From Catenovulum agarivorans DS-2 (GTDB taxonomy: Bacteria > Pseudomonadota > Gammaproteobacteria > Enterobacterales > Alteromonadaceae), in assembly GCF_000568405.1 (NCBI RefSeq), contig NZ_ARZY01000005.1, positions 62,001-126,000 of the forward strand: a DNA stretch of 64,000 bases, written 5' to 3'. Made by a program: the position numbers and the translations under genes. Shown in pieces: positions 1 through 64,000 of the stretch (position 1 is the first letter of the stretch; each line of letters begins with the position of its first letter). Under the pieces are notes generated by a model. It had not been told where the DNA came from and searched no databases. It saw only the letters and a program-made list of their open reading frames with translations.

Positions 1-760
1 CTTTAAACTTTACCTCATCGAGCACTTGCTCTGTGGTTATTGCATCTTCAGCGGCAATTTCTAAGCCTTGGATATAAGGTAACACACCAATAACAGGTTT
101 GTTGGTTTTATGCTCCAACCAAGTTAGACCTGATTCAAGTAATTTTATATCACCACGAAACTTATTAATGATAAAGCCTTTTACTCGATTGCGTTCAGAT
201 TCAGATAACAATTCTAGCGTGCCAACTAACTGCGCGAATACGCCACCTTTGTCGATATCGGCGACCAAAATAACCGGACAATCTGCCGCTTCGGCAAAGC
301 CCATGTTAGCTATGTCGCCTTCGCGTAAATTAATTTCAGCTGGGGAGCCTGCGCCTTCAACTATAATTGCTTGATATTTTTGTTTGAGCCGCTGATGTGA
401 TTCTAATACCGCATCCATCGCAACTTTTTTATAATCGTGATATTGCTGCGCCTGCATTTGCGATATAGCTTTGCCGTGAATTATAACTTGTGCGCCAGTA
501 TCTGAACTTGGCTTCAATAAAATTGGGTTAAAGTCGACGTCTAACTCAACACCTGCAGCCAAAGCCTGAACCGCTTGCGCTCGGCCGATTTCACCACCAT
601 CAGGCGTGACTGCACTATTAAGCGCCATATTTTGTGGTTTAAATGGAGCGGTTTTGATCCGTCGGCGCTTTAATATTCGGCAAATAGCCGCAACAATTGT
701 ACTTTTACCCGCATCGGAAGCCGTTCCTTGAATCATCAAGGTTTTGTTGGGTTTATCCAT
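1..760 (-). CDS. cobQ: Cobyric acid synthase, N-terminal part (runs off the left edge)
   Basis: CobQ uses glutamine and ATP to amidate adenosylcobyrinic acid a,c-diamide to adenosylcobyric acid in the cytoplasm. About 253 codons are visible. They include the dethiobiotin-synthetase-like P-loop [10 protein letters not shown] at residues 12-21, the [10 protein letters not shown] stretch near residue 40 and VEGAGSP near residue 130, all typical of CobQ. The glutaminase half must lie beyond position 1. The ATG at 760 abuts the stop codon of the upstream phosphatase gene, so the two are probably translationally coupled. It is the last visible gene of the riboswitch-led cobalamin operon. The family is clear; only completeness cannot be judged. 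Confidence 0.93.
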
Positions 761-1405
761 TTATTTGGTTGGCGCACAATTTGGTTTACAACCAATTGTT
801 TTGACAATGGGCATCGCTTTCGAGTAAGCCGCTAATTCAACTTTTGTAAAACTGGCATAGTCGACTTTTAATTGACTAAACCACAATGCATTGCGCCAAT
901 CGATATCTAACATAATCGCCAGCATCATCTTAATCACACCTGCATGACACACCAGCAAATAATGTTGGCCTTGATTGTGCTCAGCCAATTCTCTCCATAA
1001 ACTTTTAACTCTAATACCGAATTGTTTAAGCGTTTCACCTTGTGGTGGCGTGTTGCGGTATGGGTTTTCCCAAAAAGCTTCTAGCTTAGACCAGTGTGCG
1101 CGTAAGCGGTCAAATGGAATACCATCCCAACGGCCAAAATCCATTTCTGATAAACGTGAATCTAAAATAATTTCTTTACCTGAAGTTTCAGCGTACTCTT
1201 CAGCAAACATGGCACAACGCAATAGTGGTGAAGAAACAATGCGATCGATTGGCTCACATTTGTCAATATAATCGACACTTGCCTGCATATCTGCTAACCC
1301 TTGTTCAGACAAGGTTACATTTGAATGTCCGTACAAAGCTGGGCGTCCTGCCACAGCCCCATGCCGTAATAAAGTAAATTTCGCAGCGGTTTTATTGTCA
1401 GTCAT
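761..1405 (-). CDS. cobC: Histidine phosphatase, probable alpha-ribazole-5'-phosphate phosphatase
   Basis: A 214-residue member of the phosphoglycerate-mutase-like histidine phosphatase family. The phosphate-accepting RHG is at residues 14-16, and the second catalytic histidine is probably in VCHAGVIK near residue 155. The family's cobalamin member removes phosphate from alpha-ribazole phosphate (or adenosylcobalamin phosphate) late in nucleotide-loop assembly. The assignment to that substrate is inferred from context: the gene sits 10 bases after cobU and touches cobQ, inside a cobalamin operon. A general phosphoglycerate-mutase-like activity cannot be excluded from the sequence alone. Confidence 0.85.
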   Translation of the reverse strand: MTDNKTAAKFTLLRHGAVAGRPALYGHSNVTLSEQGLADMQASVDYIDKCEPIDRIVSSPLLRCAMFAEEYAETSGKEIILDSRLSEMDFGRWDGIPFDRLRAHWSKLEAFWENPYRNTPPQGETLKQFGIRVKSLWRELAEHNQGQHYLLVCHAGVIKMMLAIMLDIDWRNALWFSQLKVDYASFTKVELAAYSKAMPIVKTIGCKPNCAPTK

Positions 1406-1415
1406 ATAATACTCC

Positions 1416-1970
1416 TTAATCGCTTTGCGAGTTTAATGCTGGATTAGCATAGTTAAACATTGGCAAACCTGCCGCCATAAAAGTGACTTTATGCGCTATT
1501 TGTGCCAATGTTTGATTTAAGCGCCCCGCCTCATCAACAAATTCTCGGCATATTGCCGTTGCGGGTACCACCCCTAATCCAACTTCATTTGCCACTACTA
1601 TAATATCAACTTTGAGTGACTGTATGGTTGCAGCTAGTTGTGCAAATTCCATTGGCCAATTAGGCTGCTGTTGCTCAAACATTATGTTGTTAATCCATAA
1701 AGTTAAACAATCTAATAAAATAACATCGGCTTGTTGTTCTGCTTGTTTAATAGCACCCACAAGGTTAACCGGTGCTTCAAGCAACAACCAATTTTCTGGT
1801 CGTCGCGCTTGATGATGTTGAATACGTGAATCCATTTCGCTATCAAAACGAGTTGCGGTGGCAATATAACAGACCTGCCGGTATTGAGATGCCAACTGCT
1901 CAGCAAATTTAGACTTTCCCGAACGAGCGCCGCCAATTACAAAATGAAATTTAGCCAATGATACCACCAA
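1416..1970 (-). CDS. cobU: Bifunctional adenosylcobinamide kinase / adenosylcobinamide-phosphate guanylyltransferase
   Basis: CobU phosphorylates adenosylcobinamide and then transfers GMP to give adenosylcobinamide-GDP, the partner that CobS condenses with alpha-ribazole. At 184 residues it has the usual family length. The P-loop GGARSGKSK is at residues 13-21 and ATATRFDSEMDSRI follows the second strand. HHQARRPENW near residue 53 probably carries the histidine that is guanylylated in characterised CobU. NEVGLGVVP is the conserved late motif. The start overlaps the end of cobS by 20 bases, which supports co-translation. All catalytic motifs look intact. Confidence 0.95.
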   Translation of the reverse strand: MVVSLAKFHFVIGGARSGKSKFAEQLASQYRQVCYIATATRFDSEMDSRIQHHQARRPENWLLLEAPVNLVGAIKQAEQQADVILLDCLTLWINNIMFEQQQPNWPMEFAQLAATIQSLKVDIIVVANEVGLGVVPATAICREFVDEAGRLNQTLAQIAHKVTFMAAGLPMFNYANPALNSQSD

Positions 1971-2745
1971 AAATCGCTAACTGATTGTGAACAAATGTAA
2001 CACAGACTAAATAAATTAAGATTTCAGAAATCTGTTGAGCACCACCTAAGGTGTCACCTGTAAACCCGCCAATTTGTTTTATCAGGAATACACGATAAAC
2101 CAACAAAAACAGTAATATGCTAACTGAGAGCGCAATCAGCAACTGCCAAGTTAAAATTAAGCACACAGGTAAAACGCAGGCTAAATTTATCAGTTGTTCA
2201 CGGCTTGTTTGATTTTCAGCCAATGGTTTAGATTTACTTTGTTGTTCTGAAACGTAAGGCACTAAGGTCAGTAGCTGCGCCGCTGTAGCACGCGACAATG
2301 CATAGGTTATTGGAATTAACCAGACTAGCAATTCATTTAGATGTTGCCATAACATTAGCTTAGCAAATAGAGCCAGCATTAAAGCAGACGAGCCATAAGT
2401 GCCCAGACGACTATCTTTCATTATACGCAGTTTATCGGCTTTGCTAAAACCACCACCAAAACCGTCAGCCATATCAGCTAATCCGTCTTCATGAAATACC
2501 CCTGTTAACAACAAGCTGATTACCAATAAACACCATACCGCAACATCAGTTGGAAATATTTGCGATAAACCGACAAAACATACGGCTAATATGCCACCGA
2601 TAAACCAGCCAACCAAACAGAAATATCGGTTGCTTTTGTTTAAATTCTGCTGGCTATACTCTACCCAACTTGTCACAGGTAGGCGGGTAAAAAAGCTCAA
2701 CGCCAATAAAAATAAATTAAGTTGCGTGCACAAGCTCCTATACAA
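1951..2745 (-). CDS. cobS: Adenosylcobinamide-GDP ribazoletransferase (cobalamin synthase)
   Basis: An integral membrane enzyme of 264 residues that joins adenosylcobinamide-GDP to alpha-ribazole (or its phosphate) to make cobalamin. The family signature HEDGLADMADGFGGG lies at residues 85-99 between hydrophobic helices, and KDSRLGTYG follows at about residue 110, both expected for magnesium and substrate binding. FTGDTLGGAQQ is the conserved late motif. Several membrane segments are evident through the protein. It overlaps cobT by 8 bases and cobU by 20, so the order cobT-cobS-cobU is tightly coupled. Function is secure. Confidence 0.95.
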   Translation of the reverse strand: MYRSLCTQLNLFLLALSFFTRLPVTSWVEYSQQNLNKSNRYFCLVGWFIGGILAVCFVGLSQIFPTDVAVWCLLVISLLLTGVFHEDGLADMADGFGGGFSKADKLRIMKDSRLGTYGSSALMLALFAKLMLWQHLNELLVWLIPITYALSRATAAQLLTLVPYVSEQQSKSKPLAENQTSREQLINLACVLPVCLILTWQLLIALSVSILLFLLVYRVFLIKQIGGFTGDTLGGAQQISEILIYLVCVTFVHNQLAIFGGIIG

Positions 2746-3832
2746 CTTTAGTCACCTCAGCATCGGCAAAACTCGCCATACAATTATAAAATTGAGCGGC
2801 GCTACGAATCAGCGGTACAGACAAAGCCGCACCAGTACCTTCGCCCAAACGCATATTAATATCCAACAAAGGCTTAGCACTCAGCTCAGCTAACAATAAC
2901 TTATGGCCATATTCTTCACTTTTATGCGCAAAAACCATGTAGTCACGACAATTAGGGTTAATCCGACAAGCAAGTAGAGCGGCAGCACTCGAAATAAAGC
3001 CATCTACAACAACAATCTTGCTGGCTTGGGCACACGCTAACATAGCCCCTGCTATTTGACCGATTTCAAATCCACCAACCTCAGCTAAACACTCAATAGG
3101 ATTCGGCTGCTTGTGTTGATACGCTTTATGAACACGCTCAATGCTCTGTTTAATTAACTTTAGTTTTAATCGATACTGCTCATCACTGATACCTGTTCCA
3201 TGGCCTACGGTTAATTCAGCAGCTTGTGAAGTTAACAAACTGGTTAAAGCTGATGCGCTAGAAGTGTTGCCTATGCCCATTTCACCAAAACCAATCACAG
3301 AATATTGATTAAAATAAGCTTTGATTAATTCAGCACCTTGATTGATACAAGCTTGTGCATGCTCAATTGTCATTGCACTGGTTTGCGAAAAATCGTTTGT
3401 ACCGGCTGCAATGCGCGATTCGATATAGCTGCCGTTTTGTAAATAAGCCGATTTTTTTGGATGTTGCAGTGGCGTTAAAACACCTGTATCCACCACATGT
3501 AATTGCACTTGATTCGCTGCGCAAAAACAATTGATTGCTGCGCCTCCATTTAAAAAATTAGCCACCATTTGTTGTGTAACTTCACTCGGCGCAATACTAA
3601 TACCTTGGGCGGCAATCCCATGATCACCAGCAAATACGAATACTGCGGCGCTTGTTACATCAAGCGGTTGTTCGATATCCTGTTGTTGCTGAATTAAAGC
3701 AATTTGAAATGCTAAGTCTTCCAGCTGACCTAATGCACCCAAAGGTTTGGTTTTACCATCAATTTTAGCTTTAACTTGTTCGATAAATTCTGGCGTGTTC
3801 AATTGCGCCAAACTATTGATATTAAACTGCAT
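2738..3832 (-). CDS. cobT: Nicotinate-nucleotide-dimethylbenzimidazole phosphoribosyltransferase
   Basis: CobT activates the lower ligand by making alpha-ribazole phosphate from dimethylbenzimidazole and nicotinate mononucleotide. The 364-residue length is normal. Recognisable motifs are KTKPLGALGQLE near residue 30, FAGDHGIAAQGIS near residue 70, GFGEMGIGNTS near residue 180 and MRLGEGTGAAL near residue 327, the last holding the probable catalytic glutamate. It starts 2 bases after the stop of the permease gene, so it belongs to the same transcript. No pathway for making dimethylbenzimidazole is visible here, so the cell may salvage the ligand or encode it elsewhere. Confidence 0.96.
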   Translation of the reverse strand: MQFNINSLAQLNTPEFIEQVKAKIDGKTKPLGALGQLEDLAFQIALIQQQQDIEQPLDVTSAAVFVFAGDHGIAAQGISIAPSEVTQQMVANFLNGGAAINCFCAANQVQLHVVDTGVLTPLQHPKKSAYLQNGSYIESRIAAGTNDFSQTSAMTIEHAQACINQGAELIKAYFNQYSVIGFGEMGIGNTSSASALTSLLTSQAAELTVGHGTGISDEQYRLKLKLIKQSIERVHKAYQHKQPNPIECLAEVGGFEIGQIAGAMLACAQASKIVVVDGFISSAAALLACRINPNCRDYMVFAHKSEEYGHKLLLAELSAKPLLDINMRLGEGTGAALSVPLIRSAAQFYNCMASFADAEVTKVV

Positions 3833-3834
3833 GG

Positions 3835-4839
3835 TTAAACCTTTTTATGCATTAGAGTTAAAAAGAATAAACTACCGATAATAGATGTTATGACACCTAT
3901 TGGTATCTCTTGCCCATCGACCGCGGTGCGCGCGAGTACATCAACCCACAGCATAAAAATAGCGCCAATGAATGCACTACCACAGACTAAAATTAAACTG
4001 GTTGAAGCAAATAGGCGCCGGACAATATGTGGGATCATCAAACCAACAAAACCAATACCGCCGCAATAAGCAACTATAGTTGCAGTAATCGCCGCACAGA
4101 CCATTAATAAGATTACCCGCACCAAAGTTACGTTGATACCCAAAGTAGCTGCGCTTTCGTCACCTAATAAAATTGCATCCAGCTGCCGATGAAACAGCAT
4201 TACTAAGCCTAAGCCTGTCAGCAATACTGGCACTATCCAATATAAATGGGCCATTTCCACTCGCGCCAGCGACCCCATCAACCAAAACATCACACGATTA
4301 GCTGCAAACGGGTCGCCCATATACAAAATAAATTGACTTAAAGCACTAAGCATAAAAGATACAGCGACACCTGCTAATAACAAAGACTCTATTTTGCGGC
4401 TATGTTTACCAACAACAGCAACCGCCATAACAATAAAAATGGCTAAAATGGCCCCTAAAAAAGCAGCTATAGGTAAATAGACGGCGCTAGCTTGCTCGAA
4501 TACAACCGTCACGATGGTTGCGCCTAACCCTGCCCCAGAGACAACGCCGAACAAATATGGCTCAGCCAATGGATTCCGAGTGGTATTTTGTAATACAGCC
4601 CCCGCGACTGCTAAACCCGCACCACAAAGTGCACCGACAATAACCCGGGGCAAACGAATTTGCCAAATAAGCGTTTCTGTTAAAGAGTCAGCACAGGTGG
4701 CAAATACACAGGCATAAACATCACCAACGGTTAGCTCTGCAGCCCCCATAGACAAAACAGCAAAAAAACTAATCACTAACACGACAGCCGCTACAACAAA
4801 TTTAAGCCAAACTTTGGGGTTAGCATGGTAACTATTCAT
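3835..4839 (-). CDS. btuC: FecCD-family ABC transporter permease, probable cobalamin/corrinoid importer
   Basis: A 334-residue permease of the BtuC/FhuB/FecCD type with about ten hydrophobic segments. RLPRVIVGALCGAGLAVAG is the classic family stretch, and GFVGLMIPHIVRR near the C-terminus matches the loop that contacts the ATPase. An upstream in-frame start at 4893 exists, but it would overlap the ATPase gene heavily and add a cysteine-rich, unlikely N-terminus, so the ATG at 4839 is chosen (8-base overlap). The substrate is inferred from its place between a cobalamin riboswitch and cobT. The binding protein BtuF is not in this cluster. Confidence 0.88.
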   Translation of the reverse strand: MNSYHANPKVWLKFVVAAVVLVISFFAVLSMGAAELTVGDVYACVFATCADSLTETLIWQIRLPRVIVGALCGAGLAVAGAVLQNTTRNPLAEPYLFGVVSGAGLGATIVTVVFEQASAVYLPIAAFLGAILAIFIVMAVAVVGKHSRKIESLLLAGVAVSFMLSALSQFILYMGDPFAANRVMFWLMGSLARVEMAHLYWIVPVLLTGLGLVMLFHRQLDAILLGDESAATLGINVTLVRVILLMVCAAITATIVAYCGGIGFVGLMIPHIVRRLFASTSLILVCGSAFIGAIFMLWVDVLARTAVDGQEIPIGVITSIIGSLFFLTLMHKKV

Positions 4840-5635
4840 AAGTGTGTGTCTGCAACTGTTGCTGTTGTGGCCAGTGGTAAAACATGTGCACACTGTTGTC
4901 TAATGGATTTACACCTTTATGTACGGGTAAATTGAAAATGTTGCTGATTGATGCTTCATCAAGAATATCACCAGGTTTTCCACATTTGACCAGTTTACCT
5001 TGATGCATAACCAGTAAGTTATCACTGTATTGAGCGGCCAAATTCAAATCATGCACTGTCATTAGCACAGTTATGCCAAGCCCAGTTAACAGCGACAATA
5101 TTTGATGTTGAAAGTGAACATCTAAATGATTAGTTGGCTCGTCTAAAATAAGTAAACGTGGTTTCTGAGCTAAAGCTTTGCCAATTAATACCCTTTGCTG
5201 CTCACCACCTGACAGTTGATCAAAAAATTTATCTAATAATGCTGACAAGTTTAATTGTTGAATGATGTTATCGATATGCAGCATTTGATTTTTGCTACTG
5301 AAACCAAACCATTTGAGATGGGGCAATAGACCTAACTTAATTAAATCTATAACTTTTAGATGGCAGACAGCGTCATGCTGCTGGGTAACTACCGCTATTT
5401 TTTGTGCTATTTGTTGGCGATTCAATAAAGATAAACAAACTTGATCTAACTTAATTTGTCCAGTTTGATTGGCAAGGCCTAAATAAATACTGCGCAGCAA
5501 AGAAGTTTTCCCAGCGCCATTTGGGCCGACTACTGCTGTTACACTATTGGCGATTAACTCAAAGCTGATGTCAGTGAGTATCTGCTGTTGCTCAGTTGAC
5601 CAACTTAAATTAGAAACTTGTAGACTTGCTGCCAT
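4832..5635 (-). CDS. btuD: ABC transporter ATP-binding protein, probable cobalamin/corrinoid importer
   Basis: A 267-residue ATPase of the iron/B12 import class. Walker A GPNGAGKTS is at residues 38-46, the Q-loop VTQQHDAV near residue 88, the signature LSGGEQQRV near residue 142, Walker B LLILDEPTNHLD near residue 160 and the switch histidine in TVHDLNLAAQY near residue 193. It is the first gene after the cobalamin riboswitch and overlaps its permease by 8 bases. Energising uptake of cobalamin or its precursors is therefore the likely role, though hemin and siderophore systems use the same domain type. Confidence 0.88.
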   Translation of the reverse strand: MAASLQVSNLSWSTEQQQILTDISFELIANSVTAVVGPNGAGKTSLLRSIYLGLANQTGQIKLDQVCLSLLNRQQIAQKIAVVTQQHDAVCHLKVIDLIKLGLLPHLKWFGFSSKNQMLHIDNIIQQLNLSALLDKFFDQLSGGEQQRVLIGKALAQKPRLLILDEPTNHLDVHFQHQILSLLTGLGITVLMTVHDLNLAAQYSDNLLVMHQGKLVKCGKPGDILDEASISNIFNLPVHKGVNPLDNSVHMFYHWPQQQQLQTHTYE

Positions 5636-5664
5636 TAAATTTGCTGCTCATATCGAGTTTAACG

Positions 5665-5734
5665 CAAACCTTAGTGCATAATTTTCGCAAACCGCTGTAA
5701 ATACACTTTCGATAAATCATTGCTCTAAGGTTCG
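5665..5734 (-). promoter_or_regulatory. Hairpin in the leader between riboswitch and first gene
   Basis: On the transcribed (minus) strand CGAACCTTAG (5734-5725) can pair with CTAAGGTTTG (5674-5665) with one G-U pair, enclosing about 50 bases. It lies between the riboswitch aptamer and the ATPase start at 5635, where an expression platform could act. The opening of the reading frame follows about 30 bases later, so the stem could serve as, or compete with, a regulatory structure. This is inference from pairing only. Confidence 0.4.
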
Positions 5735-5884
5735 CACAAGCATGGGTGTTGCATGCTAGATAATTTAGCTAAGGTGTTTACACACCAAACACAATGGAAA
5801 AACAAGCTAGCAGCAATTAGCAAAGCCACGCAAAAAACAGCATGGAAGAAGACAGGTAAATTAGCCACTTTCGTGTTTTCCCGC

Positions 5885-6000
5885 ACGAAACTTACAAATT
5901 GGTATCTGACTTATGCTTGCTGAAACGACTTAACAAACAATATACAGTTGCGGGTACAGTTGCAGATTCTCACTGCATTCCCAATAGCGGCGCATTGTAA
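5885..6000 (-). ncRNA. Cobalamin riboswitch aptamer
   Basis: Read on the minus strand, the leader has the ordered conserved pieces of the cobalamin riboswitch: TTGGGAATGCAGTGAGAATC, then GCAACTGTACCCGCAACTGTA, and after a variable stretch AAGTCAGATACC. A hairpin TTTCGTG/CACGAAA follows the last box around 5870-5890. The element sits about 250 bases upstream of the transporter ATPase gene and heads the whole cobalamin operon, exactly where cobalamin would repress expression. Boundaries are approximate because the outermost stem was not resolved. Confidence 0.88.
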
Positions 6001-6034
6001 CAGTAAACAAGCGAAATTCAATTTATATACCAAA

Positions 6035-6058
6035 ACAGCCAATCATGTGATTGGCTGT
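6035..6058 (-). terminator. Terminator after the PhzF-like gene
   Basis: A perfect 11-base inverted repeat, ACAGCCAATCA/TGATTGGCTGT with a 2-base loop, lies 14 bases after the stop codon of the leftward PhzF-like gene. On the minus strand it is followed by a short T-run. It separates that gene from the riboswitch leader that begins immediately beyond. Confidence 0.65.
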
Positions 6059-6071
6059 AGGTTGTGGATGA

Positions 6072-6977
6072 CTAGATTAACAATTGTCCTTCTGTCGCCA
6101 ATACGGCACTACCTCCAATATTGACCGTTAATTCATTGTCTGTTTTGGAAACCATATCAACATGCAAAAAACTGCGACGGCCTTGATGCGCACCACGCTC
6201 AGCAACAAAATTTGACGGTAACTCAGAATAAACAGGGAATTGATTCAAATAACCTGCAAATGCAGGGATAGATGCACCAATTGGTGGATCTTCATGAATG
6301 CCAAATACTGGCCCGACCAATCGACAATGAAAATCTGAGGTTGAGAATGCACTCTTGCCACTAAACAACAAAATTGCATTAGCACAAGTAGCTGGCGCAG
6401 CTGAGCGAGCCCACGCATCATAATTAAAGCGTGCAGCTTTTAAAGATTCAAAGCTATCAACAGGCACGATTAAATATGGAATATGAGTTGCCACTAACAA
6501 AGGCGTAAAACCATTTACATTAAAGTGGTAACTTTCCAACGACAACATATCGCCTAGCTCTTCTGCGCTTGGGGTAAAGCGGTCGAATTCTAAGTTAGCG
6601 GTTGTAGTAAATTGATTAAATACAGGTTCACCCTTTTCCATAGTGACTTTACAACTAACGCAACCATGAGTTTCTTCAAGGCTAAATTGGTTTTCACCTT
6701 CTTTCAGCGATATTTCCCCGGTTTTCGCTAACGCATAAATTGCTGCAATGGTTGGATGACCACCAAATTCAAATTCGCGCTTACCATTAAAAATTCTAAT
6801 TTTCTTTTGCGCTTTGTCACTCGGCAGAATGAACACTGTTCGCCACAAGTTGAACTCTGCAGCAATGCTTAACATTTGCTGTTCAGTTAGGCCTGTAGCG
6901 TCTGGTACGACCGCAATTTGCGCGCCATCAAAACGTTTTTTGGTAAACACGTCAACCGTATAAAATTTAATAGCCAT
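6072..6977 (-). CDS. PhzF-family isomerase-like protein lacking the usual catalytic glutamate
   Basis: A 301-residue protein of the PhzF (diaminopimelate-epimerase fold) family. GGHP at residues 72-75 and the EDP near residue 205 are retained, matching the second histidine and aspartate sites of PhzF. The motif that normally reads N-L-S-E-T is here NLWRT at residues 43-47, so the position of the catalytic glutamate is arginine; the later ATGS motif reads PIGAS. The ATG at 6977 is chosen because GGAGT precedes it, rather than the upstream start at 7031. It stands alone between queE and the B12 operon. Substrate unknown. Confidence 0.8.
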   Translation of the reverse strand: MAIKFYTVDVFTKKRFDGAQIAVVPDATGLTEQQMLSIAAEFNLWRTVFILPSDKAQKKIRIFNGKREFEFGGHPTIAAIYALAKTGEISLKEGENQFSLEETHGCVSCKVTMEKGEPVFNQFTTTANLEFDRFTPSAEELGDMLSLESYHFNVNGFTPLLVATHIPYLIVPVDSFESLKAARFNYDAWARSAAPATCANAILLFSGKSAFSTSDFHCRLVGPVFGIHEDPPIGASIPAFAGYLNQFPVYSELPSNFVAERGAHQGRRSFLHVDMVSKTDNELTVNIGGSAVLATEGQLLI

Positions 6978-7104
6978 AGATACTCCGTCAAATCTGTCTT
7001 TATGCTGGTTTGTTGCCACATAACCATGCACATTAGCGCTATTTTTATAATAGTCTTATTAAAAAAAATTGCTTTGAAAATTAAGACTTTTTACTCATTT
7101 TGTT

Positions 7105-7770
7105 TTAATCGATCATCAAGTATTTATGCATTTGCACAGATAATCGCCAATTATGTTTAATGCACTCAGCGATCGCCAACTCTGTCGCACGCTTTTTTTG
7201 GCTAATCGGTTGCAAACAAACCTCAACAAACTGATTGTGTGATATTTTTGCCAACAAAGCCTGTAAGTCTCGAATATGTTGTTCGGTTGCCACTGGATGT
7301 TTAATTTCATTCGCGCGATTAAGCGCAGACACTAACACCGAGTAACCACCTTTCATACCCACTTTTGGCGATACAGTTACATACGTGTTTTCGTGCGTAT
7401 AAATTTCGAACGTACCACTGGTTTCAATTTGTGTCGTAAAACCATTTTGGTGCAAAAGTGCTGTTAATGGCCGCAAGTCGTACATACATGGCTCACCGCC
7501 TGTTATAACAATATGCTTTGCAGAATATTTTTGCAATCGGCTTAGCAGCATATTTTCATCTAAATCAGCCCAACAGTCAGAAGTATTTGATACATCCACA
7601 ACATTTTCAATTGATGTTAACTTTGTTTTATCAACTTCCCAAGTATGTTTGGTATCACACCAAGAACAACCTACTGGGCAACCTTGCAAGCGTAAAAAAA
7701 CAGATGGCACCCCTGTTTTAGCGCCCTCGCCCTGTATAGTTTCAAAAATTTCGTTTACCGGATAATTCAT
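7105..7770 (-). CDS. queE: 7-carboxy-7-deazaguanine synthase
   Basis: A 221-residue radical SAM enzyme that converts 6-carboxytetrahydropterin to 7-carboxy-7-deazaguanine, a queuosine precursor. The iron-sulfur cysteines are C31, C35 and C38 in the C-x3-C-x2-C spacing typical of many QueE enzymes, preceded by IFETIQGEGAKTG and followed by WCDTKHTW. GGEPC near residue 95 is the SAM-binding glycine-rich motif. It is divergent from queC, 90 bases away, so the two queuosine genes probably share a control region. The downstream space to the PhzF-like gene has no strong terminator. Confidence 0.95.
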   Translation of the reverse strand: MNYPVNEIFETIQGEGAKTGVPSVFLRLQGCPVGCSWCDTKHTWEVDKTKLTSIENVVDVSNTSDCWADLDENMLLSRLQKYSAKHIVITGGEPCMYDLRPLTALLHQNGFTTQIETSGTFEIYTHENTYVTVSPKVGMKGGYSVLVSALNRANEIKHPVATEQHIRDLQALLAKISHNQFVEVCLQPISQKKRATELAIAECIKHNWRLSVQMHKYLMID

Positions 7771-7860
7771 ATTGGGCTTGTAACCTGCCTTTTACTGAGT
7801 ACACTTATCGCCGCATTATAGGCTAAATTGGCACAAGTCTGGTAAATTTGAGAGGAAAAT

Positions 7861-8520
7861 ATGTCTGAAAAAGTTGTTGTTATCTATTCTGGTGGTATGG
7901 ACTCATTTACTGTACTCAATTTGGCAATACAACAAGGCTTTGATGTATATGCACTCTCTTTTAATTATGGCCAACGCCATATAAAAGAATTAGAGTTTGC
8001 CAAGTCAGTATGCAACAAACTAAATGTCCCACACAAAATTGTCGATATTTCAGCAATTAATCAGCTATTAGCAGGCAGCTCATTAACCGATGACATTGAA
8101 ATTCCTGAAGGCCACTACGAAGAAGAAAATATGAAATCAACTGTGGTACCAAACCGCAACATGATTCTATTGTCGCTCGCGGTTGGTTATGCGGTTTCGA
8201 TAAAAGCCAATAAAGTATTTTATGGCGCACATGCGGGCGACCATGCCATTTACCCTGACTGCCGCCCTGAATTTGTGGAAAAAATGAAAGCGGTTTGCGC
8301 AATAGCCGACTACCAACCTATTAGCATTGAAACCCCCTTTTTAAACGACAGTAAAATAGACATTTTAGCTCAAGGGTTAAAAATGGGATTAGACTATAGC
8401 CAAACATGGACCTGTTATAACGGCCGCGAACACGCCTGTGGTAAATGTGGTGCCTGCACAGAACGTTTAGAAGCATTTAAACTGAACAATGCAGTTGATC
8501 CACTTATTTACGAGAGTTAA
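7861..8520 (+). CDS. queC: 7-cyano-7-deazaguanine synthase (preQ0 synthase)
   Basis: QueC turns 7-carboxy-7-deazaguanine into preQ0 using ATP and ammonia. At 219 residues it is normal in size. The ATP PP-loop SGGMDS is at residues 10-15, and the zinc ligands C185, C193, C196 and C199 form the expected C-terminal cluster. A good ribosome site, GAGAGGA, precedes the ATG. Its stop overlaps by 4 bases the convergent stop of the GNAT gene. No preQ1 riboswitch was recognised in the short intergenic region. Confidence 0.96.
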
Positions 8521-9161
8521 TTAGTAGCACTATCAACATACTTAAACATTAGCTTTGCGTTAATTTCGCCAACGTTTAACTCTGTAATTGGTTGATAGTC
8601 TGCGTGTTGAAAAAAGCCGATGTAACTATCAACCGTTACGAGTACACCAGCGCCTTGGCTGTTTTTGTCTTCAGCTAACATAGTATCGATTGCATCTAAC
8701 AAATAATGGCCAACGCCGTGATGTTGATGATTTGGGTGAACCGCGATAAAGGCAATTAAATGATATTGCTCTGCCGGAATGGCTTCACGTACTTTTTGTT
8801 CTTTTTCAATCATAGCTTTGGTTGAAACAACCCCAGCGGTTAACATCATTTTTAATCGCCAATGCCAAAAACGTTTTGAACCAAAGTTACTATTCGGCTC
8901 AATCAAACACGCGACGGCCAGCAAATGGTCTGCTTCGTCATAAACACCAACCATGGGTTGATTTTGTTCCCAAAAAACCAATAGCTCTTCTCTAATGGCC
9001 GCTCTTAGTTTTTGTTCGTAACCTTGCTCTTTACTATTGAAACATTCCATAAAAAACGGATCTTTATGGTATGCCTGGTACAATAAAGAACTTGCTATGT
9101 TGATGTCTTCACCTGATAGATACGCTGCATTTAACAACGGAGTTGCACTTTCCATAAGCAT
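8517..9161 (-). CDS. GNAT-family N-acetyltransferase
   Basis: A 214-residue protein with the GNAT acetyl-CoA fold. The core strand and pyrophosphate loop read [18 protein letters not shown] near residues 142-159, with the expected HxxHGxG spacing. The N-terminal half is helical and carries no export signal. Substrate cannot be told from sequence. It is 36 bases downstream of the coiled-coil membrane protein gene on the same strand, separated by a hairpin, and converges on queC with a 4-base overlap. Confidence 0.8.
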
Positions 9162-57081: not shown

Positions 57082-58641
57082 TCATAGCTTTTGCAAAACC
57101 TTATACCGCTCGCGCAAATACCCAATATCTTCAACTGACAACTCGTTGTCCAACACCATTCGTTTATCTTGCTTAAATAGCGGCCAGTTTGGTATATCTA
57201 CCCTATTTGGATTTAGGGTTTTGATAAACTGAATAAAATATTTCTGCATTTGCTCAGATGTTTTATAGTCTGCTGCTTGCCAGTCGTAAACTTTGTTATA
57301 ACGCAAATTACCCAAGGCATATTCTATTTCTGCCGCATGAGCCGCGCCTCTGTCTGTTGACGGGCTTGGGCGAGGTCGTGCATATAAATAGTAATAAACT
57401 TGCTTCGGTTGACGTTGGCTAACAGCATCGGCCCATAACCATGTGCTCATACTTAAATATCTATCACTTGCAAGCTGCTGCGCCATTTCTAAAATTTGCT
57501 CTGGCGTAGATGCTGGATATAAAACTTTCACCTTGTCAGCATTGTCTGGGTATAGTTTTTCTATCGCTGCATGCCAATCCGCTTGAGTTAGCTTTTTCTT
57601 ATCAGCCACCTGCCCTAATACAGCTTTATAGCTAGACTCTTGAGTATTTACGCCGGTTAATAACGGAACTTGGTTGTACTTGCCCTGCGCGTATAGTTTA
57701 TGTGGGTCATCGGTAAAAAACTTACCATCAATTACAGGTTTAAACCAAACAAAGCGTTTTTCCGTCGCCTTTTTTAATAACTGCTCAGCTGATAACTTTC
57801 GCATCGCATCGACACTGGTTGCAGCTATCGCATGCTGTAATGCAACCCCTTCATCTTCACCTTCTGCTAAAGAGCGCGAACTAAAATCTAACCCCAGCAT
57901 AGAGCCGCTTTGTGCCGTCACACCTTTGAGTAAGTTTTTATTGAGTGATGTCAGCATTTGTGCACTAACAGAAATTGAACCTGCTGATTCGCCACCCAAT
58001 ACTATATGTTCAGGGTTACCACCAAACTGCTTTATATTATTTTTTACCCATTGAATCGCTGCTTGTTGATCGTATAAGCCATAGTTGCCTGAGCCTTTGT
58101 AATTGGTTTCTTTAGATAACTCAGGGTGCGACAAAAAACCAAATACACCCAAACGATAATTGACTGATACAAATACTATGCCCTGCTTGGCAAAAGCTTC
58201 ACCATCGTATCTTGCTTCATCACCACTCCCCACTGCGAAGCCACCACCGTGAAAGTAAACATATACAGGTGCATTTTTATTATCGGCTTTGCTCCATATG
58301 TTTAAATACAAACAATCTTCACTATGTTTATTTGAGCGGAATATAATGTCGTTAAATATTCTATTTTGTACACACCTAGCCGCAAACTGATTTGCTTGAT
58401 GGATAACCTCTTTTTTAGAAGCTGATAGCTCTATTGGCTGTGGTAATTTCCAACGCAGCTCACCAACTGGCGGCTTAGCGAAAGGAACGCCTAAATAGCC
58501 TACAACACCTTGCTCTAGCTCTACCCCTTGGTATTGGCCTTGATTTAGCTTAACAATATTAGCTGAAGCGTGTGCTTGCGCCTTGGCACATACAGATATG
58601 GCTAAAGTGCATATTAGAAAGATGATTTTATTTATTTTCAT
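57082..58641 (-). CDS. Exported type-B carboxylesterase/lipase
   Basis: A 519-residue alpha/beta hydrolase with a signal peptide (about 1-24, ending AQAHA). YVYFHGGGFAVGSG near residue 128 forms the oxyanion hole, the nucleophile serine is in GGESAGSISVS near residue 216, and a glutamate and a histidine in AAHAAEIEYALGN near residue 435 supply the rest of the site. It hydrolyses esters in the periplasm; the substrate is unknown. Separated by 145 bases and a terminator from the sugar cluster, so it is probably an independent transcript in the same neighbourhood. Confidence 0.88.
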   Translation of the reverse strand: MKINKIIFLICTLAISVCAKAQAHASANIVKLNQGQYQGVELEQGVVGYLGVPFAKPPVGELRWKLPQPIELSASKKEVIHQANQFAARCVQNRIFNDIIFRSNKHSEDCLYLNIWSKADNKNAPVYVYFHGGGFAVGSGDEARYDGEAFAKQGIVFVSVNYRLGVFGFLSHPELSKETNYKGSGNYGLYDQQAAIQWVKNNIKQFGGNPEHIVLGGESAGSISVSAQMLTSLNKNLLKGVTAQSGSMLGLDFSSRSLAEGEDEGVALQHAIAATSVDAMRKLSAEQLLKKATEKRFVWFKPVIDGKFFTDDPHKLYAQGKYNQVPLLTGVNTQESSYKAVLGQVADKKKLTQADWHAAIEKLYPDNADKVKVLYPASTPEQILEMAQQLASDRYLSMSTWLWADAVSQRQPKQVYYYLYARPRPSPSTDRGAAHAAEIEYALGNLRYNKVYDWQAADYKTSEQMQKYFIQFIKTLNPNRVDIPNWPLFKQDKRMVLDNELSVEDIGYLRERYKVLQKL

Positions 58642-58786: not shown

Positions 58787-59668
58787 TTACAAAAAGCTAT
58801 CTAAACCTTTTTTAGATTCAGCTACAGCTTGTAAAGGTGTTAAGCCATTTGGATATTCTTCTTGCTCAACTACTAACCATAAAGTGCCGCCAACTTCTTT
58901 ATTGGCTTTAATTAAATTTGGCCAATCAATGGTATCTTTGCCGATAATAGGCAACTTACCTTGAGTGCCTTCTGGCAAACGTACTTTATAGTGCGTGGTT
59001 AAAGTTCGGCCTGGATATTTGCGCACATATTCAACTGGATCATTGCCTGAGTACTCTGTCCAACCCACATCCTGCTGCAACACTACATTTTCAGAAGTAT
59101 TTTGCGCCATGTAATCCCAATAGGTAGAATTTTTGTATGCTTCAAATTCTTGCGCATGGTTGTGGTAACCCACTTTCATACCATATGCTGCTAATTTATC
59201 TGATAATCTGTTTAGCTCAGCGACTACCCATTCAATGCCATCTGCACTGAAGGCTCTCTCATCGTAAGGTACTATTAACAGGTTGCAGTCTAGTGTTTTA
59301 TAAAAAGCGACAGTAGATAAGAAGTTTTCATCGTCTAATGCAGAAAATGGCACATGCGCACCACTAGCTTGCAAGTTTAAGCTGGTTAAAAATTGCTTTA
59401 AGCCATGCGGGTTTTGTGCGTATGGGCCAAAGTCTCGCGCAAACTCAACGCCTTGAAAACCCATTTTAGATAATTGAGTTAAAGTACCTTTAAAGTCTTT
59501 TTTTACATCATCTTTAACTGACCAGAGTTGCACACTAATTTTTGGCATTTGTTCTTTGCTGTCCATTGTTTTTGACGTTGAGGTGGATGTTGCGTTGCAG
59601 CCCAGCACCAAAGTGCTTACAGCCGCTACACAAGCTAGTTTTTTAAGGGTGTGTATTATGTTTTTCAT
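58787..59668 (-). CDS. Exported TIM-barrel lipoprotein, sugar isomerase/epimerase-like
   Basis: A 293-residue protein of the xylose-isomerase-like TIM-barrel (AP endonuclease 2) superfamily. The signal peptide ends LVLGC, lipid cysteine C24, so it is anchored on the periplasmic side. SVQLWSVKDDV near residue 46, MGFQGVEFARDF near residue 70, KVGYHNHAQEFE near residue 165 and LQQDVGWTEY near residue 195 supply the acidic and histidine metal-site residues. Related proteins act on keto sugars or inosose. Last gene of the oxidoreductase cluster, 35 bases after the GMC gene. Confidence 0.82.
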   Translation of the reverse strand: MKNIIHTLKKLACVAAVSTLVLGCNATSTSTSKTMDSKEQMPKISVQLWSVKDDVKKDFKGTLTQLSKMGFQGVEFARDFGPYAQNPHGLKQFLTSLNLQASGAHVPFSALDDENFLSTVAFYKTLDCNLLIVPYDERAFSADGIEWVVAELNRLSDKLAAYGMKVGYHNHAQEFEAYKNSTYWDYMAQNTSENVVLQQDVGWTEYSGNDPVEYVRKYPGRTLTTHYKVRLPEGTQGKLPIIGKDTIDWPNLIKANKEVGGTLWLVVEQEEYPNGLTPLQAVAESKKGLDSFL

Positions 59669-59703
59669 GTTTAGAGTCTCTATGTGTTTTATATAATTAA
59701 TTA

Positions 59704-61431
59704 TTAGATTCGACGGTTTTTCATTTCTTTAACGGCATAATCAACTGCACGAGCGGTTAAAGCCATAAAGGTTAATGACGGATTAACAACGGCAGACGAG
59801 CTAAAACTTGCACCATCAGTAACAAACAAGTTTGGAATGTCATGTGCTTGGTTATAGCCATTCAGTACTGAGTCTTTTGGATCGCGTCCCATACGCGCTG
59901 TGCCCACTTCGTGTATCGCGATCCCTGGCGGCCTTTCGGTTGCATAACCTTGAATGTTTTTAAAGCCGGCTTTTTCAAACATTTCGCTTGCAACTTCTAC
60001 TGAGTTTTCCATCATTTTGCGTTCGTTATCCGACCATTCCACATTAAATTCTATTTGCGGTATGCCCCATTTATCTTTTTTAGTTGCATGTAAGGTCATT
60101 TGATTATCAGGATTCGGCAACATCTCTCCTTGTGCTTGCAAGCCTATTTTCCACTTACCAGGATGCTGTAATTTATTTTTAAACGATTCTCCAAAACCAT
60201 CAGCATGGCCAAACGATTGCCAGTCTTCACGGTAAGCACCGCCAGATAACGCATAACCTCGCTTAAAGCCTTTGTGATATTTAGATGGCTCATAATAGAA
60301 ATTGGGTACATATAAACCCGCTGGGCGGCGGCCAATGTAATATTCATCTTCAAAACCATCAATATCCGCACTGGTACGCGAATTGTAGTTGTGATCCATT
60401 AGGTATTTACCCAACACACCCGAGCTATTGGCTAAACCGTTTTTAAATTTATTGGTTTTGCTATTGAGTAATATTTGGGTACTGCCAATGGTTGAGGCAC
60501 ACAAGAACACCAATTTACCGTAGTACTCTCGCTGAGTTAAGTTATCGTTATCGATAACGCGCACGCCTTTTAACCGGTTAGTTGCTTCATCATAAATTAA
60601 ACTTTCAACCACACTGTTTGGCGCAATATATAAATTGCCGGTTCGCGCTGCCGCTGGCAATGTCGCGCTTTGTGTTGAGAAATATGCTCCGAACGAACAC
60701 CCTTTTTGGCATTCGTTACGTGCCATACATTTCATGCGACCAAGCTCAACATGAATTTGTTGAGGTTCAGTTAAATGGGCACACCGGCTAATAATAACGG
60801 GTTTGTCAGGAAAAGTACCCGCCATTTTCTGCCTAAATGATTTTTCAGGGCCATTCATTTCAAACGGTGGTAAAAATTGGCTGTCTGGCAGTTGTGGTAA
60901 GTTATCGTAGTTACCGCTAATACCAACAAATTTTTCTACGTAATCGTACCAAGGCGCTAAGTCTTTATAGCGAATAGGCCAGTCATTGCCAACTCCGTCA
61001 GCTTTATTGGCTTTAAAGTCGTAGTCACTTAAGCGATAGCTTTGCCTATGCCATAATAATGATTTACCACCCAATTGGTTGGCACGGATCCAACTAAATT
61101 CTGTACCATCTTTCGTTGTGTAGGGTAAATCTCGGTCGTTACCAAAAAAATGTTTAGTACCATCATGAAAGGCATAACATTGTTTTTGAATTTTGTATTG
61201 CTGTTCAACTAATAAGTTGTCTACTTTTGTGCGGTTTTCATATTGCCAAGGTGCTTTACCTTCTGCAATGTAGTCTTTGCGGTGTTCAACTACTCTGCCG
61301 CGTTCAACCATTAAGGTTTTAAATCCTTTTTCGCAAAACTCTTTTGCAGCCCAGCCGCCTGTCATGCCCGAGCCTATAACGATAACGTCATAAACCTCGC
61401 TCGATTCATTTATATACTTTGTCTCTTTCAT
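59704..61431 (-). CDS. GMC-family FAD oxidoreductase
   Basis: A 575-residue flavoprotein that oxidises a sugar or polyol. VIVIGSGMTGGWAAKEFCEK near residue 15 binds FAD. The catalytic histidine is likely in IAIHEVGTARMGRDP near residue 510, and LFVTDGASFSSSAVVNPSLT near residue 535 is the closing motif. A cysteine cluster, KCMARNECQKGCSFG near 238, might be structural. It has no signal peptide, and the next upstream gene encodes a Tat-exported small subunit that could carry it across the membrane, as in glucoside-3-dehydrogenases. The substrate is inferred only. Confidence 0.87.
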   Translation of the reverse strand: MKETKYINESSEVYDVIVIGSGMTGGWAAKEFCEKGFKTLMVERGRVVEHRKDYIAEGKAPWQYENRTKVDNLLVEQQYKIQKQCYAFHDGTKHFFGNDRDLPYTTKDGTEFSWIRANQLGGKSLLWHRQSYRLSDYDFKANKADGVGNDWPIRYKDLAPWYDYVEKFVGISGNYDNLPQLPDSQFLPPFEMNGPEKSFRQKMAGTFPDKPVIISRCAHLTEPQQIHVELGRMKCMARNECQKGCSFGAYFSTQSATLPAAARTGNLYIAPNSVVESLIYDEATNRLKGVRVIDNDNLTQREYYGKLVFLCASTIGSTQILLNSKTNKFKNGLANSSGVLGKYLMDHNYNSRTSADIDGFEDEYYIGRRPAGLYVPNFYYEPSKYHKGFKRGYALSGGAYREDWQSFGHADGFGESFKNKLQHPGKWKIGLQAQGEMLPNPDNQMTLHATKKDKWGIPQIEFNVEWSDNERKMMENSVEVASEMFEKAGFKNIQGYATERPPGIAIHEVGTARMGRDPKDSVLNGYNQAHDIPNLFVTDGASFSSSAVVNPSLTFMALTARAVDYAVKEMKNRRI

Positions 61432-61514
61432 GTAATGTGTAGTCCAAGGTTAATGCTGCGCTAAATTATTATTTTTATTGCCGCGAAGCTTATTAAATTT
61501 ATAGTATTTAAATT

Positions 61515-62120
61515 TTAGTAATATGCTTTAGAACTCCACGCCCTACCTATTTGTTCATAGGGGACAGAGCCTTGATAACCACCTGGTACAGGTAAATATT
61601 TCAAAAACTTTAATGCCCCCTCTTCTGAAGTGCAGAAACCAAATACAGTTAGATTTTTAATAAACTTCAAGTTTGCTCTATCCACTTGGTTAAAACCATT
61701 ACGTGCTTGCTCTGCATCTGTTAACAACGCGAGCTGCTGTTGGTCATTACACAAATAGAACTCCAACTGAAAACGTTTTACCGACATCTCATTCATTTTA
61801 TTCACCAGCGACACTGCATTCTTTTGTTCTACAGCTGTATGAACATTCGCAAGCTGATGGTCAATAAAGCCATGGCAATCAACGTCTGTCGCGCCGACAC
61901 TATCCGTAGTAGGAATAATCTGCCCGACTATACTGTGCAATATAATCATTTGATTTTTAGTAAATACACGACCGTCAATTTTGTAACTGTTTACATTTTT
62001 TGTGTAACAAAAAGCAGACTTAATTGCCTGCTCTCCTAACAGCTGGCTTGCGGCAGCTGTGCCAAGCACAGCGCCTAAGCCTTGTAACAGTCGTCGCCTA
62101 TTGGTGACGATTGAACTCAT
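61515..62120 (-). CDS. Tat-exported small subunit, gluconate 2-dehydrogenase subunit 3 family
   Basis: A 201-residue protein with a twin-arginine signal, TNRRRLLQGLGAVLGT at residues 6-21. The mature part is helical. Members of this family pair with GMC oxidoreductases in membrane-bound dehydrogenases, aiding export and folding of the large subunit. The GMC gene follows 83 bases later. The usual third subunit, a cytochrome c, is not present in the window, so electrons may go to another carrier. Start overlaps the MFS stop by 4 bases. Confidence 0.83.
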   Translation of the reverse strand: MSSIVTNRRRLLQGLGAVLGTAAASQLLGEQAIKSAFCYTKNVNSYKIDGRVFTKNQMIILHSIVGQIIPTTDSVGATDVDCHGFIDHQLANVHTAVEQKNAVSLVNKMNEMSVKRFQLEFYLCNDQQQLALLTDAEQARNGFNQVDRANLKFIKNLTVFGFCTSEEGALKFLKYLPVPGGYQGSVPYEQIGRAWSSKAYY

Positions 62121-63355
62121 AGAGCCTCTCCAGTTTGATTGGGGGTAACATCATTTTGTGCTTTATTTTTACGCATAAATAAATATAGCGCAGCGAAAGC
62201 AACTATGAGTATAGTTGGGAATATGGCTAAATTAGATAAAGCGACTTGACCAGCAACTAATTCGGCCTCTGCGCCAGTCAAGTTTTGCGCTTCTGCAGCT
62301 GCACGCGCTGCATCAATCCAACCACCGATAATTGGATTCCACATACTCACTGCAAACATGCCTGCACCACCAATAAGTGACATACCTAAGGCACCTGTTT
62401 TAGGTTGGTATTCTGCAATAAACCCAATCATGGTTGGCCAGAAATAAGTTACGCCTAATGCAAACACAATTGCAGCTACATAAACCATACCACCCGTTAC
62501 AGTGCTCATTAAGTAGATACCTGCTGCAGAGAGCACAGCCGACATCAATAATATTCCAACTGGATTTAGCGTATGTACCAATGGGCCAGCAAAATAACGA
62601 CCAACAGCCATAAGACCAGTAATCATTGCCATAATTAACATTGGAGATGCACCAGTTGCACCTAAAATGCGTTCAATCCATTGTTGTGTACCTAGCTCTG
62701 TGGTTGCAGTTAACGTCATACACAACACCATAAATAAGAACAGCGGTGAGAATAATGCTTTGATATTGGCAGAAGTAGAATTTTCGATATGTACCGCTTC
62801 TGGAAACTTCTGAGTAAACATCATGAAACCATAGATTACTGTTGGAATTAGCATAACTGCAATTTGTAACTCCCAACCTAAGCCCATATCTGTCATAAAT
62901 TTAGAAATTAGTGCGCCAATTACAATACCGCCAGGGAACCACACGTGAAAACGATTCAACATTGTCGTTTTGTTTTTATTGTAAATGTCGGCTATTAGCG
63001 GGTTACACCCTGCTTCAACCGCCCCATTGGCAAAACCAACGAAGAAGCTAGAAACTAACAGCAGCCAGAAACCATCGGCCATTATGGTTAATGCTAACCC
63101 TAATAAATGGCCTATAAACGCAATTAAAATTAACTTACGCGCACCTATCCAATTATAAAGCAACCCACCAAACATGGTTGCGACCGGAAAGCCTAAAAAG
63201 GCCATCGCATTTATCCAACCTAATTGGCTGTCTGTTAAATTAAAACTTTCGCTTAACTGACCCAATATACCTGCGCGAATTGCGAAGGTCATTGCGGTAA
63301 CCGTTAGTGCTATACAGCTTGCAATAAAAAGCCTATTGGCTTGCTGAGTATTCAT
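62117..63355 (-). CDS. MFS sugar transporter
   Basis: A 412-residue permease with twelve membrane segments and the FucP/NupG-like motif arrangement. The loop after helix 2 reads GGLLYNWIGARKL, and FFVGFANGAVEAGCNPLI near residue 105 lies in the fourth helix. The ATG at 63355 has GAGGCG upstream and lies 10 bases after the isomerase stop; the longer frame from 63427 is not credible. It probably imports the sugar or keto sugar formed by the oxidoreductase. Confidence 0.85.
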   Translation of the reverse strand: MNTQQANRLFIASCIALTVTAMTFAIRAGILGQLSESFNLTDSQLGWINAMAFLGFPVATMFGGLLYNWIGARKLILIAFIGHLLGLALTIMADGFWLLLVSSFFVGFANGAVEAGCNPLIADIYNKNKTTMLNRFHVWFPGGIVIGALISKFMTDMGLGWELQIAVMLIPTVIYGFMMFTQKFPEAVHIENSTSANIKALFSPLFLFMVLCMTLTATTELGTQQWIERILGATGASPMLIMAMITGLMAVGRYFAGPLVHTLNPVGILLMSAVLSAAGIYLMSTVTGGMVYVAAIVFALGVTYFWPTMIGFIAEYQPKTGALGMSLIGGAGMFAVSMWNPIIGGWIDAARAAAEAQNLTGAEAELVAGQVALSNLAIFPTILIVAFAALYLFMRKNKAQNDVTPNQTGEAL

Positions 63356-63365
63356 ATTGTTCGCC

Positions 63366-64000
63366 TCACAGTCCAAGTATTTTATTATTAAATTCGCGAT
63401 CTGCTTCGACACCAGCAAAATCATCAAAAGCTTTATCAGTGGTGCGTATTAGGTGTTTAGCAATAAACGGCGCACCTTCTTGAGCACCTTGTTCAGGGTG
63501 CTTCATACAACATTCCCACTCCAACACAGCCCAACCTTTGAATCCGTATTGAGTTAATTTGCTAAAGATACCGCTGAAATCTATTTGACCATCCCCTAAT
63601 GAGCGGAAGCGCCCAGGTCTTTCTTGCCAACCTTGATAACCGCCATAAACACCCGCTTTGCCGTTTGGCAAAAACTCTGCGTCTTTTACATGGAATGCTT
63701 TGATGCGATCGTGGTAAAAATCGATAAACTGTAAATAATCTAACTGCTGTAAAACGAAATGGCTTGGATCATAAAGAATGTTCGCTCTTGCATGATTATT
63801 AGTTGCTTCTAAGAAACGCTCAAAAGTAACACCGTCATGTAAGTCTTCACCTGGGTGAAGTTCGTAACAAACGTCGACACCATTTTCATCAAAGGTATTT
63901 AAGATTGGTAACCAGCGCTCCGCTAAAGCTTCAAAGCCTTGTTCAACTAATCCTGCAGGGCGCTGTGGCCAAGGGTAAACTGTATGCCATAAAAACGAAC
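63366..64000 (-). CDS. Sugar phosphate isomerase/epimerase family protein (start beyond the right edge)
   Basis: About 210 C-terminal codons are visible, reading leftward. The frame contains VCYELHPGEDLHD, ILYDPSHFVLQ and KAFHVKDAEF, which are the metal-binding glutamate, aspartate and histidine segments of TIM-barrel isomerases, and ends NNKILGL. It has no signal in the visible part, so it may be a cytoplasmic partner of the periplasmic lipoprotein relative. The gene lies 10 bases before the MFS start and heads the visible cluster. Confidence 0.85.
   Translation of the reverse strand, partial: SFLWHTVYPWPQRPAGLVEQGFEALAERWLPILNTFDENGVDVCYELHPGEDLHDGVTFERFLEATNNHARANILYDPSHFVLQQLDYLQFIDFYHDRIKAFHVKDAEFLPNGKAGVYGGYQGWQERPGRFRSLGDGQIDFSGIFSKLTQYGFKGWAVLEWECCMKHPEQGAQEGAPFIAKHLIRTTDKAFDDFAGVEADREFNNKILGL

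Follow-up and report, generated by a model that had tools for sequence, protein, structure and literature searches.

A putative operon for glycoside cleavage by oxidation and elimination, with a predicted exported lyase, in Catenovulum agarivorans DS-2

Gene content of the locus

We analysed a stretch of 64,000 nucleotides from Catenovulum agarivorans DS-2 (the window; G000:C5:62001-126000, G000 being the strain's own genome), located inside a 166,750-base contig, and in particular a gene cluster at its right-hand end. Five closely spaced genes occupied positions 58787-64000, all on the minus strand (Table 1). Pfam and the sequence itself confirmed the order and families given in an earlier interpretation made from the letters alone (the sequence-only reading), namely an isomerase-family triosephosphate isomerase (TIM) barrel, a major facilitator superfamily (MFS) permease, a small subunit exported by twin-arginine translocation (Tat), a glucose-methanol-choline (GMC) flavoprotein and a TIM-barrel lipoprotein. 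The gene of the first barrel was cut by the window edge and was completed in L003, a stretch extending past that edge, where it encoded 350 amino acids (L003:5366-6418, or window 63366-64418). L003 also contained a Gfo/Idh/MocA oxidoreductase gene and, beyond it, a divergent gene for a regulator with PAS and AraC-type domains. Thus, extension to the right, which the sequence-only reading had proposed as a check, added a reductase and a regulator that would complete a 3-keto-sugar pathway, not an unrelated one. For the permease gene, the ATG at 63355 was the likelier start, the listed TTG at 63427 falling within the preceding gene.

Table 1. Members of the proposed operon, in the order of transcription
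Feature	Position in the window	Strand	Evidence
Gfo/Idh/MocA oxidoreductase, first operon gene	64435-65610 (L003:6435-7610), starting 435 bases past the window edge	-	Pfam
Cytoplasmic TIM barrel, proposed 2-hydroxy-3-keto-glucal hydratase	63366..64000 (window edge)	-	AP_endonuc_2 E 4.6e-36; 8ro4
MFS permease, candidate importer of the elimination product	62117..63355	-	MFS_1 E 2.7e-24
Tat-exported small (hitch-hiker) subunit	61515..62120	-	Gluconate_2-dh3 PF13618 E 1e-22; twin arginine at the start; five sequences aligned
GMC flavoprotein, putative catalytic subunit of a periplasmic glycoside 3-dehydrogenase	59704..61431	-	GMC_oxred C 1.3e-22, N 7.8e-12
Exported TIM-barrel lipoprotein, proposed 3-keto-glycoside 1,2-lyase (beta-eliminase)	58787..59668	-	AP_endonuc_2 E 1.9e-11; lipobox; AtOGE residues; model
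Exported carboxylesterase, possible last operon gene	57082..58641	-	COesterase E 3.1e-104; 145 bases downstream of the lyase gene

The TIM barrels and the reductase

The lipoprotein started with a signal ending in the lipobox LVLGC followed by Asn (export signals were judged by eye throughout). Its best matches among solved sequences were 8tcd and 8tct (E 2e-18) and AtOGE of Agrobacterium tumefaciens (8bvk; 6e-17). Residues H169, H171, D200, H226 and E268 aligned with His132, His134, Asp163, His189 and Glu233 of AtOGE, which were named as ligands or catalyst in a passage of PMC10628242, and all five were invariant in the 12 aligned lyases, the window's one counted. The AlphaFold model of the lipoprotein had a mean pLDDT (predicted local distance difference test score) of 87.6, with residues 1-38 mostly below 50. 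When Foldseek's 1000 best chains were compared with it again, the model was closest to the 3-keto-beta-glucopyranoside-1,2-lyases 8tcd, 8tcr and 8tct (Z 29.4, 29.4 and 28.3; identity 27-28%), and IolE (Z 23.5-22.7) and epimerases (about 20) followed lower down. From its sequence and model, the lipoprotein was probably a 3-keto-glycoside lyase (beta-eliminase) rather than an isomerase.

The cytoplasmic barrel matched PDB entry 8ro4, deposited as 2-hydroxy-3-keto-glucal hydratase, over its full length with an E-value of 3.7e-173. It was a close relative of this hydratase and probably not an isomerase. The best solved relative of the reductase was 3v5n, an oxidoreductase of unassigned function (E 1.9e-103). 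The sequence-only reading had assigned isomerisation to the two barrels, and in this respect it gave way to a lyase and a hydratase, which fitted best. Since all gene families of the A. tumefaciens operon discussed below were present, a sequence of oxidation, elimination, hydration and reduction described the locus better than the proposed oxidation and isomerisation.

Lipoprotein or Sec-like signals were present at the start of 12 of the 12 relatives of the window lyase that scored above 300 bits among the matches listed. Five further lyases at other loci (L151-L155) bore signals as well, and in L156 the frame started too far upstream to be judged. One of these, L152:7496-8368 (G000:C28), was a second lyase homologue in the strain's own genome (343 bits, Sec-like signal), located near Gfo-like frames of weak score. 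A plasmid locus of Rhizobium leguminosarum (L141) was of another kind: the gene for a signal-less lyase-like barrel of 252 amino acids had an ATP-binding cassette (ABC) transporter on one side and the hydratase and reductase on the other, which counted in favour of the pathway proposed below. The compartments of the sequence-only reading held for the window, with the lipoprotein predicted outside, the second barrel inside and the permease between them.

The dehydrogenase pair and its electron acceptor

The small subunit began with MSSIVTNRRRLLQGLG, in which a twin arginine was read directly, and no solved sequence matched it with an E-value of 1 or below. The GMC protein carried no visible signal ahead of its fold for binding flavin adenine dinucleotide (FAD). 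Its nearest solved relatives were fructose dehydrogenase and FAD-glucose dehydrogenase, and its CX5CX3C triad (C235, C241, C245) aligned with that of fructose dehydrogenase and was invariant in all 10 aligned proteins. We take this triad to hold a 3Fe-4S cluster. A PF13618 small subunit with a Tat signal, a signal-less GMC protein and the cysteine triad together made up the feature set of cytochrome c-reducing sugar dehydrogenases, which bore out the earlier suggestion that the pair belongs to the group in which glucoside 3-dehydrogenases are found.

A search of the strain's own genome with a small cytochrome of the Bacteroidota type gave one match, inside an 837-amino-acid frame at C3 (33% identity), and identified no dedicated acceptor. 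There were 15 other PF13442 matches over the cut-off in this genome, so acceptor candidates remained. The window pair was not assigned to the LacABC class, as a dedicated cytochrome c subunit or partner was not found for it. In 21 of 80 named loci (L050-L115; best 80 of 591 matches), a small CXXCH protein of about 120-190 amino acids with a lipoprotein-like start was encoded beside the hydratase. By record title or general taxonomy, we take all 21 loci to be from Bacteroidota, and it was likely that the small protein served there as the electron acceptor of the local dehydrogenase. According to a passage of PMC9915066, glucoside 3-dehydrogenase hands its electrons to a mono-heme cytochrome of R. 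radiobacter. Together, the 21 loci and this passage supported a cytochrome as the acceptor.

Co-occurrence of lyase and hydratase

We compared 60 genomes, the strain's own included, and found the hydratase in 19 of them (E < 1e-160), among which were all eight of its own genus. Three genomes with weak hydratase matches only (G042, G044, G052) were counted as negative. A lyase profile of 11 rows, of which the 60 genomes had supplied 6, scored above 300 bits in 15 of the 19 hydratase-positive genomes and in none of the 41 negative ones, where the best score was 37 bits (Fisher p 7e-11). With one genome per genus the proportions were 8/12 and 0/41 (p 6e-7). These p-values overstated significance because the genomes were related, and the one-per-genus figures were fairer. 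Lyase and hydratase also co-occurred when unlinked: among the 15 genomes holding both, 9 had the lyase outside the stretch that was retrieved with the hydratase gene. In Catenovulum adriaticum, the lyase gene was solitary, with no GMC gene adjoining.

Other families followed the hydratase as well. Namely, PF13618 was found in 17 of the 19 positive and 8 of the 41 negative genomes, and PF06439 was over its cut-off in 17 and 4, respectively. Ten DUF1080 proteins over the Pfam cut-off were scattered over several contigs of the strain's own genome, against a single hydratase. The hydratase also occurred in Alphaproteobacteria and Bacteroidota (best 80 of 591 confirmed matches; 373 plasmid records).

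We next set side by side 20 hydratase loci, the window and 19 from 18 other genomes, with profiles partly seeded from the same loci, so that high scores there were partly built in. Reductase and hydratase genes were adjacent in all 20, an MFS gene adjoined them in 17 and the PAS-AraC gene in 16. The GMC/Tat pair lay within the stretch in 11 of the 20. Other core loci carried a 3-keto-disaccharide hydrolase (DUF1080), a GMC/Tat pair of a second type, ThuA or a TIM barrel of the Tat type.

Proposed pathway and its alternatives

From the genes present and their order, their relationships to known families, the active-site residues, the export signals and the co-occurrence described above, we infer that the operon, together with its PAS-AraC regulator and perhaps the esterase, brings about net hydrolysis of a glycoside, likeliest a glucoside, with no glycoside hydrolase involved. 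We held this with good though not full confidence. In the periplasm, the GMC/Tat pair would oxidise the sugar at C3, and FAD would hand the electrons on, probably through an iron-sulphur cluster, to a cytochrome c whose gene lies elsewhere. The lipoprotein would then free the aglycone by metal-assisted beta-elimination, leaving 2-hydroxy-3-keto-glucal, and the MFS permease would carry this compound or its hydrate into the cell. There, the cytoplasmic barrel would add water to give 3-keto-glucose, which the Gfo/Idh/MocA enzyme would reduce to glucose. The permease was the natural candidate for import because cleavage outside requires that the product be taken up and because an MFS gene stood beside the hydratase in most loci; its cargo is a prediction from this arrangement.

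Several observations weighed against this pathway. The lyase was present in only 6 of the 20 core loci. Genome G043 had the hydratase and the reductase and lacked the lyase, PF13618 and PF06439, which counted against a strict link between lyase and hydratase. Among the fold matches, AtOGE (Z 24.6) ranked level with the isomerase Art22 (24.1), with IolE close by (23.5), and two Parabacteroides proteins without assigned function scored above AtOGE (28.1 and 26.5). No cytochrome partner was found locally, there being no unlabelled open reading frame of 90-900 amino acids with CXXCH in the 20 kb of L003, as the sequence-only reading had already noted for the genes it saw. GMC proteins of rhizobial plasmids were only about 30% identical to that of the window. 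In one rhizobial GMC neighbourhood (GMC 31% identical) the annotated stretch held an ABC transporter and a TIM barrel and showed no hydratase or PF13618 product. Finally, in Azospirillum brasilense (L140:9001-14068) the hydratase and reductase genes were followed by xylA and xylB, with a sugar ABC transporter ahead, a warning that the substrate may vary.

This last arrangement favoured the same chemistry on another sugar, such as a 3-keto pentose or a deoxy- or other algal glycoside, so that the product would not be glucose. The genus was probably associated with algae, and sulfatases adjoined some front ends elsewhere. For the algal sugar or polyol suggested by the sequence-only reading, the analysis gave evidence neither for nor against. 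We nevertheless regarded another sugar as rather unlikely, given that the hydratase was very close to 8ro4, which is named for the glucal, and that the closest folds to the lipoprotein were glucopyranoside lyases. It was also unlikely, to a similar or slightly greater degree, that the permease imports a 3-keto-glycoside or some other sugar, or exports something, with elimination outside not being the main route. The 14 of 20 core stretches lacking the lyase would fit such a role, whereas the export signals of the lyase relatives and the co-occurrence of lyase and hydratase even when unlinked argued for cleavage outside.

A pathway for levoglucosan or another anhydrosugar, of the LgdA-B-C kind, would follow the identical order of oxidation, elimination, hydration and reduction, as given in a passage of PMC10066097. 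Moreover, levoglucosan dehydrogenase (NF052479) was the best NCBIfam model for the Gfo/Idh/MocA protein. Its score was only 94.2 bits against a curated cut-off of 650, and membership in LgdA was rejected on this ground. Oxidation in the window would also fall to the GMC/Tat pair, whose substrate could still be levoglucosan; we considered such a pathway very improbable. Least of all did we expect a true isomerase or inositol pathway, in which IolE/IolI-like barrels would act on inosose. IolE (TIGR04379) was the sole NCBIfam model matched by both barrels, and IolE and isomerase structures were among the fold matches of the lipoprotein. The two scores of 62.1 and 63.6 bits were far below the curated cut-off of 290, so the identity of the barrels as myo-inosose dehydratases was rejected, and 8ro4 for one barrel and the 3-keto-lyases for the other were far better matches.

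Comparison with known systems

The chemistry is already known from other bacteria. According to passages of PMC10628242, an A. tumefaciens operon encodes GlycDH with a Tat protein partner, AtOGE, AtHYD and a Gfo oxidoreductase, which convert glucosides to glucose: the sugar is oxidised at C3, beta-elimination then yields 2-hydroxy-3-keto-glucal, and this is hydrated and reduced; the evidence for hydration is there termed preliminary. The window operon resembled what these passages describe in its GMC dehydrogenase with a Tat partner (judged by the families present), its TIM-barrel lyase with the same five residues, its 8ro4-like hydratase and its Gfo/Idh/MocA reductase in the same operon. Unlike the A. 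tumefaciens operon as described there, it had a lyase that was an exported lipoprotein, and MFS and PAS-AraC genes in the cluster. AtOGE in 8bvk was a chain of 259 residues, and its match to the lipoprotein began near its first residues.

The lyases of Alistipes and Bacteroides (8tcd, 8tcr, 8tct), closest in fold to the lipoprotein, came from another phylum, and their accompanying dehydrogenase is presumably of the Gfo/Idh type, in contrast to the GMC/Tat pair of the window. In LacABC lactose 3-dehydrogenase systems with DUF1080 (Caulobacter, Pedobacter), C3 oxidation and subsequent cleavage are likewise periplasmic according to a passage of PMC9007349. Cleavage is there by DUF1080, whereas the window operon had no DUF1080 gene and no cytochrome gene was found in it. 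The levoglucosan pathway (LgdA, LgdB1, LgdB2, LgdC), as far as it is set out in a passage of PMC10066097, takes analogous steps through 2-hydroxy-3-keto-glucal, with NAD-dependent oxidation by LgdA and ABC import in place of the GMC/Tat pair and MFS permease.

Among the open-literature matches listed (title or start of the abstract, with subscription literature outside this scope), we found no account of DUF7133, or of an MFS importer combined with an exported 3-keto-glycoside lyase. What appeared to be new was an exported lyase together with a GMC/Tat pair and an MFS permease in marine Gammaproteobacteria, and the arrangement around a shared core. The proposed pathway would extend the recently described non-hydrolytic cleavage of glycosides to marine bacteria that were probably associated with algae. 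Cleavage would take place outside the inner membrane, and the permease would be a candidate importer for a reactive enone sugar. Moreover, the pathway suggests testable functions for genes that usually bear the annotation 'sugar phosphate isomerase/epimerase', 'GMC family oxidoreductase' or 'gluconate 2-dehydrogenase subunit 3'. The hydratase with the exported lyase could be used as its genome marker.

A steady core and variable front ends

Since the core was steady and the oxidising and cleaving part varied, one importer and one back end may serve several front ends. We tentatively put forward that marine Alteromonadales transport 2-hydroxy-3-keto-glucal as a shared currency, although the evidence left this on the doubtful side. 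Under this model, a fixed core (PAS-AraC regulator, reductase, hydratase, MFS importer) would serve interchangeable periplasmic front ends at scattered loci. These would include a GMC/Tat pair combined with either the lyase lipoprotein or DUF1080, and also a third, so far unrecognised class of sugar C3 oxidase in which DUF7133 (glucose/sorbosone-dehydrogenase-like) is joined to HEAT repeats and a fused cytochrome c. Enone sugars released by neighbouring cells might then be taken up as well.

In the strain's own genome, a second GMC and PF13618 pair (L005:6092-11524, G000:C36) had a sulfatase and a BNR_4 protein as neighbours and a DUF1080 match at a distance of about 10 kb. This pair may be a further front end, with a sulphated algal glycan as its target.

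Large proteins that looked exported and combined DUF7133, HEAT repeats and cytochrome c were encoded at L153:7536-10928 and L155:8200-11586, each beside an unlinked lyase, and further sites were G000:C3:113674-114855 and G016:C5:210744-213206. In G016, the DUF7133 and DUF1080 matches fell in one open frame of 1194 amino acids. At 90 bits or more, DUF7133 had 31 matches, spread over 10 genomes, every one of them hydratase-positive. With DUF1080 matches taken from 57 bits, 16 of the 31 lay within 6 kb of DUF1080 and 3 within 6 kb of a lyase, where random placement, which ignores the clustering of sugar genes, gave 0.63 and 0.1. Weaker DUF7133 matches (48-61 bits, over the family cut-off), outside this count, occurred in four hydratase-negative genomes (G021, G038, G040, G041). 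Going by gene neighbourhood, our guess was that the DUF7133-cytochrome c proteins are a further class of periplasmic sugar oxidase.

Operon boundaries and the carboxylesterase gene

Scans of L003 from 200 to 9000 gave no excess over shuffled sequences for promoters (18 vs 25.4, standard deviation 5.4) or terminators (9 vs 9.2, standard deviation 3.3). From the reductase gene onward, the intergenic gaps were 16, 10, -4, 83 and 35 bases, ahead of the wider gap to the carboxylesterase gene, and such small gaps fitted a single transcript. A carboxylesterase gene also adjoined the lyase gene in two of the five other lyase-holding loci of relatives (L026 and L027), with 81% and 51% identity, and the enzyme may deacylate the substrate.

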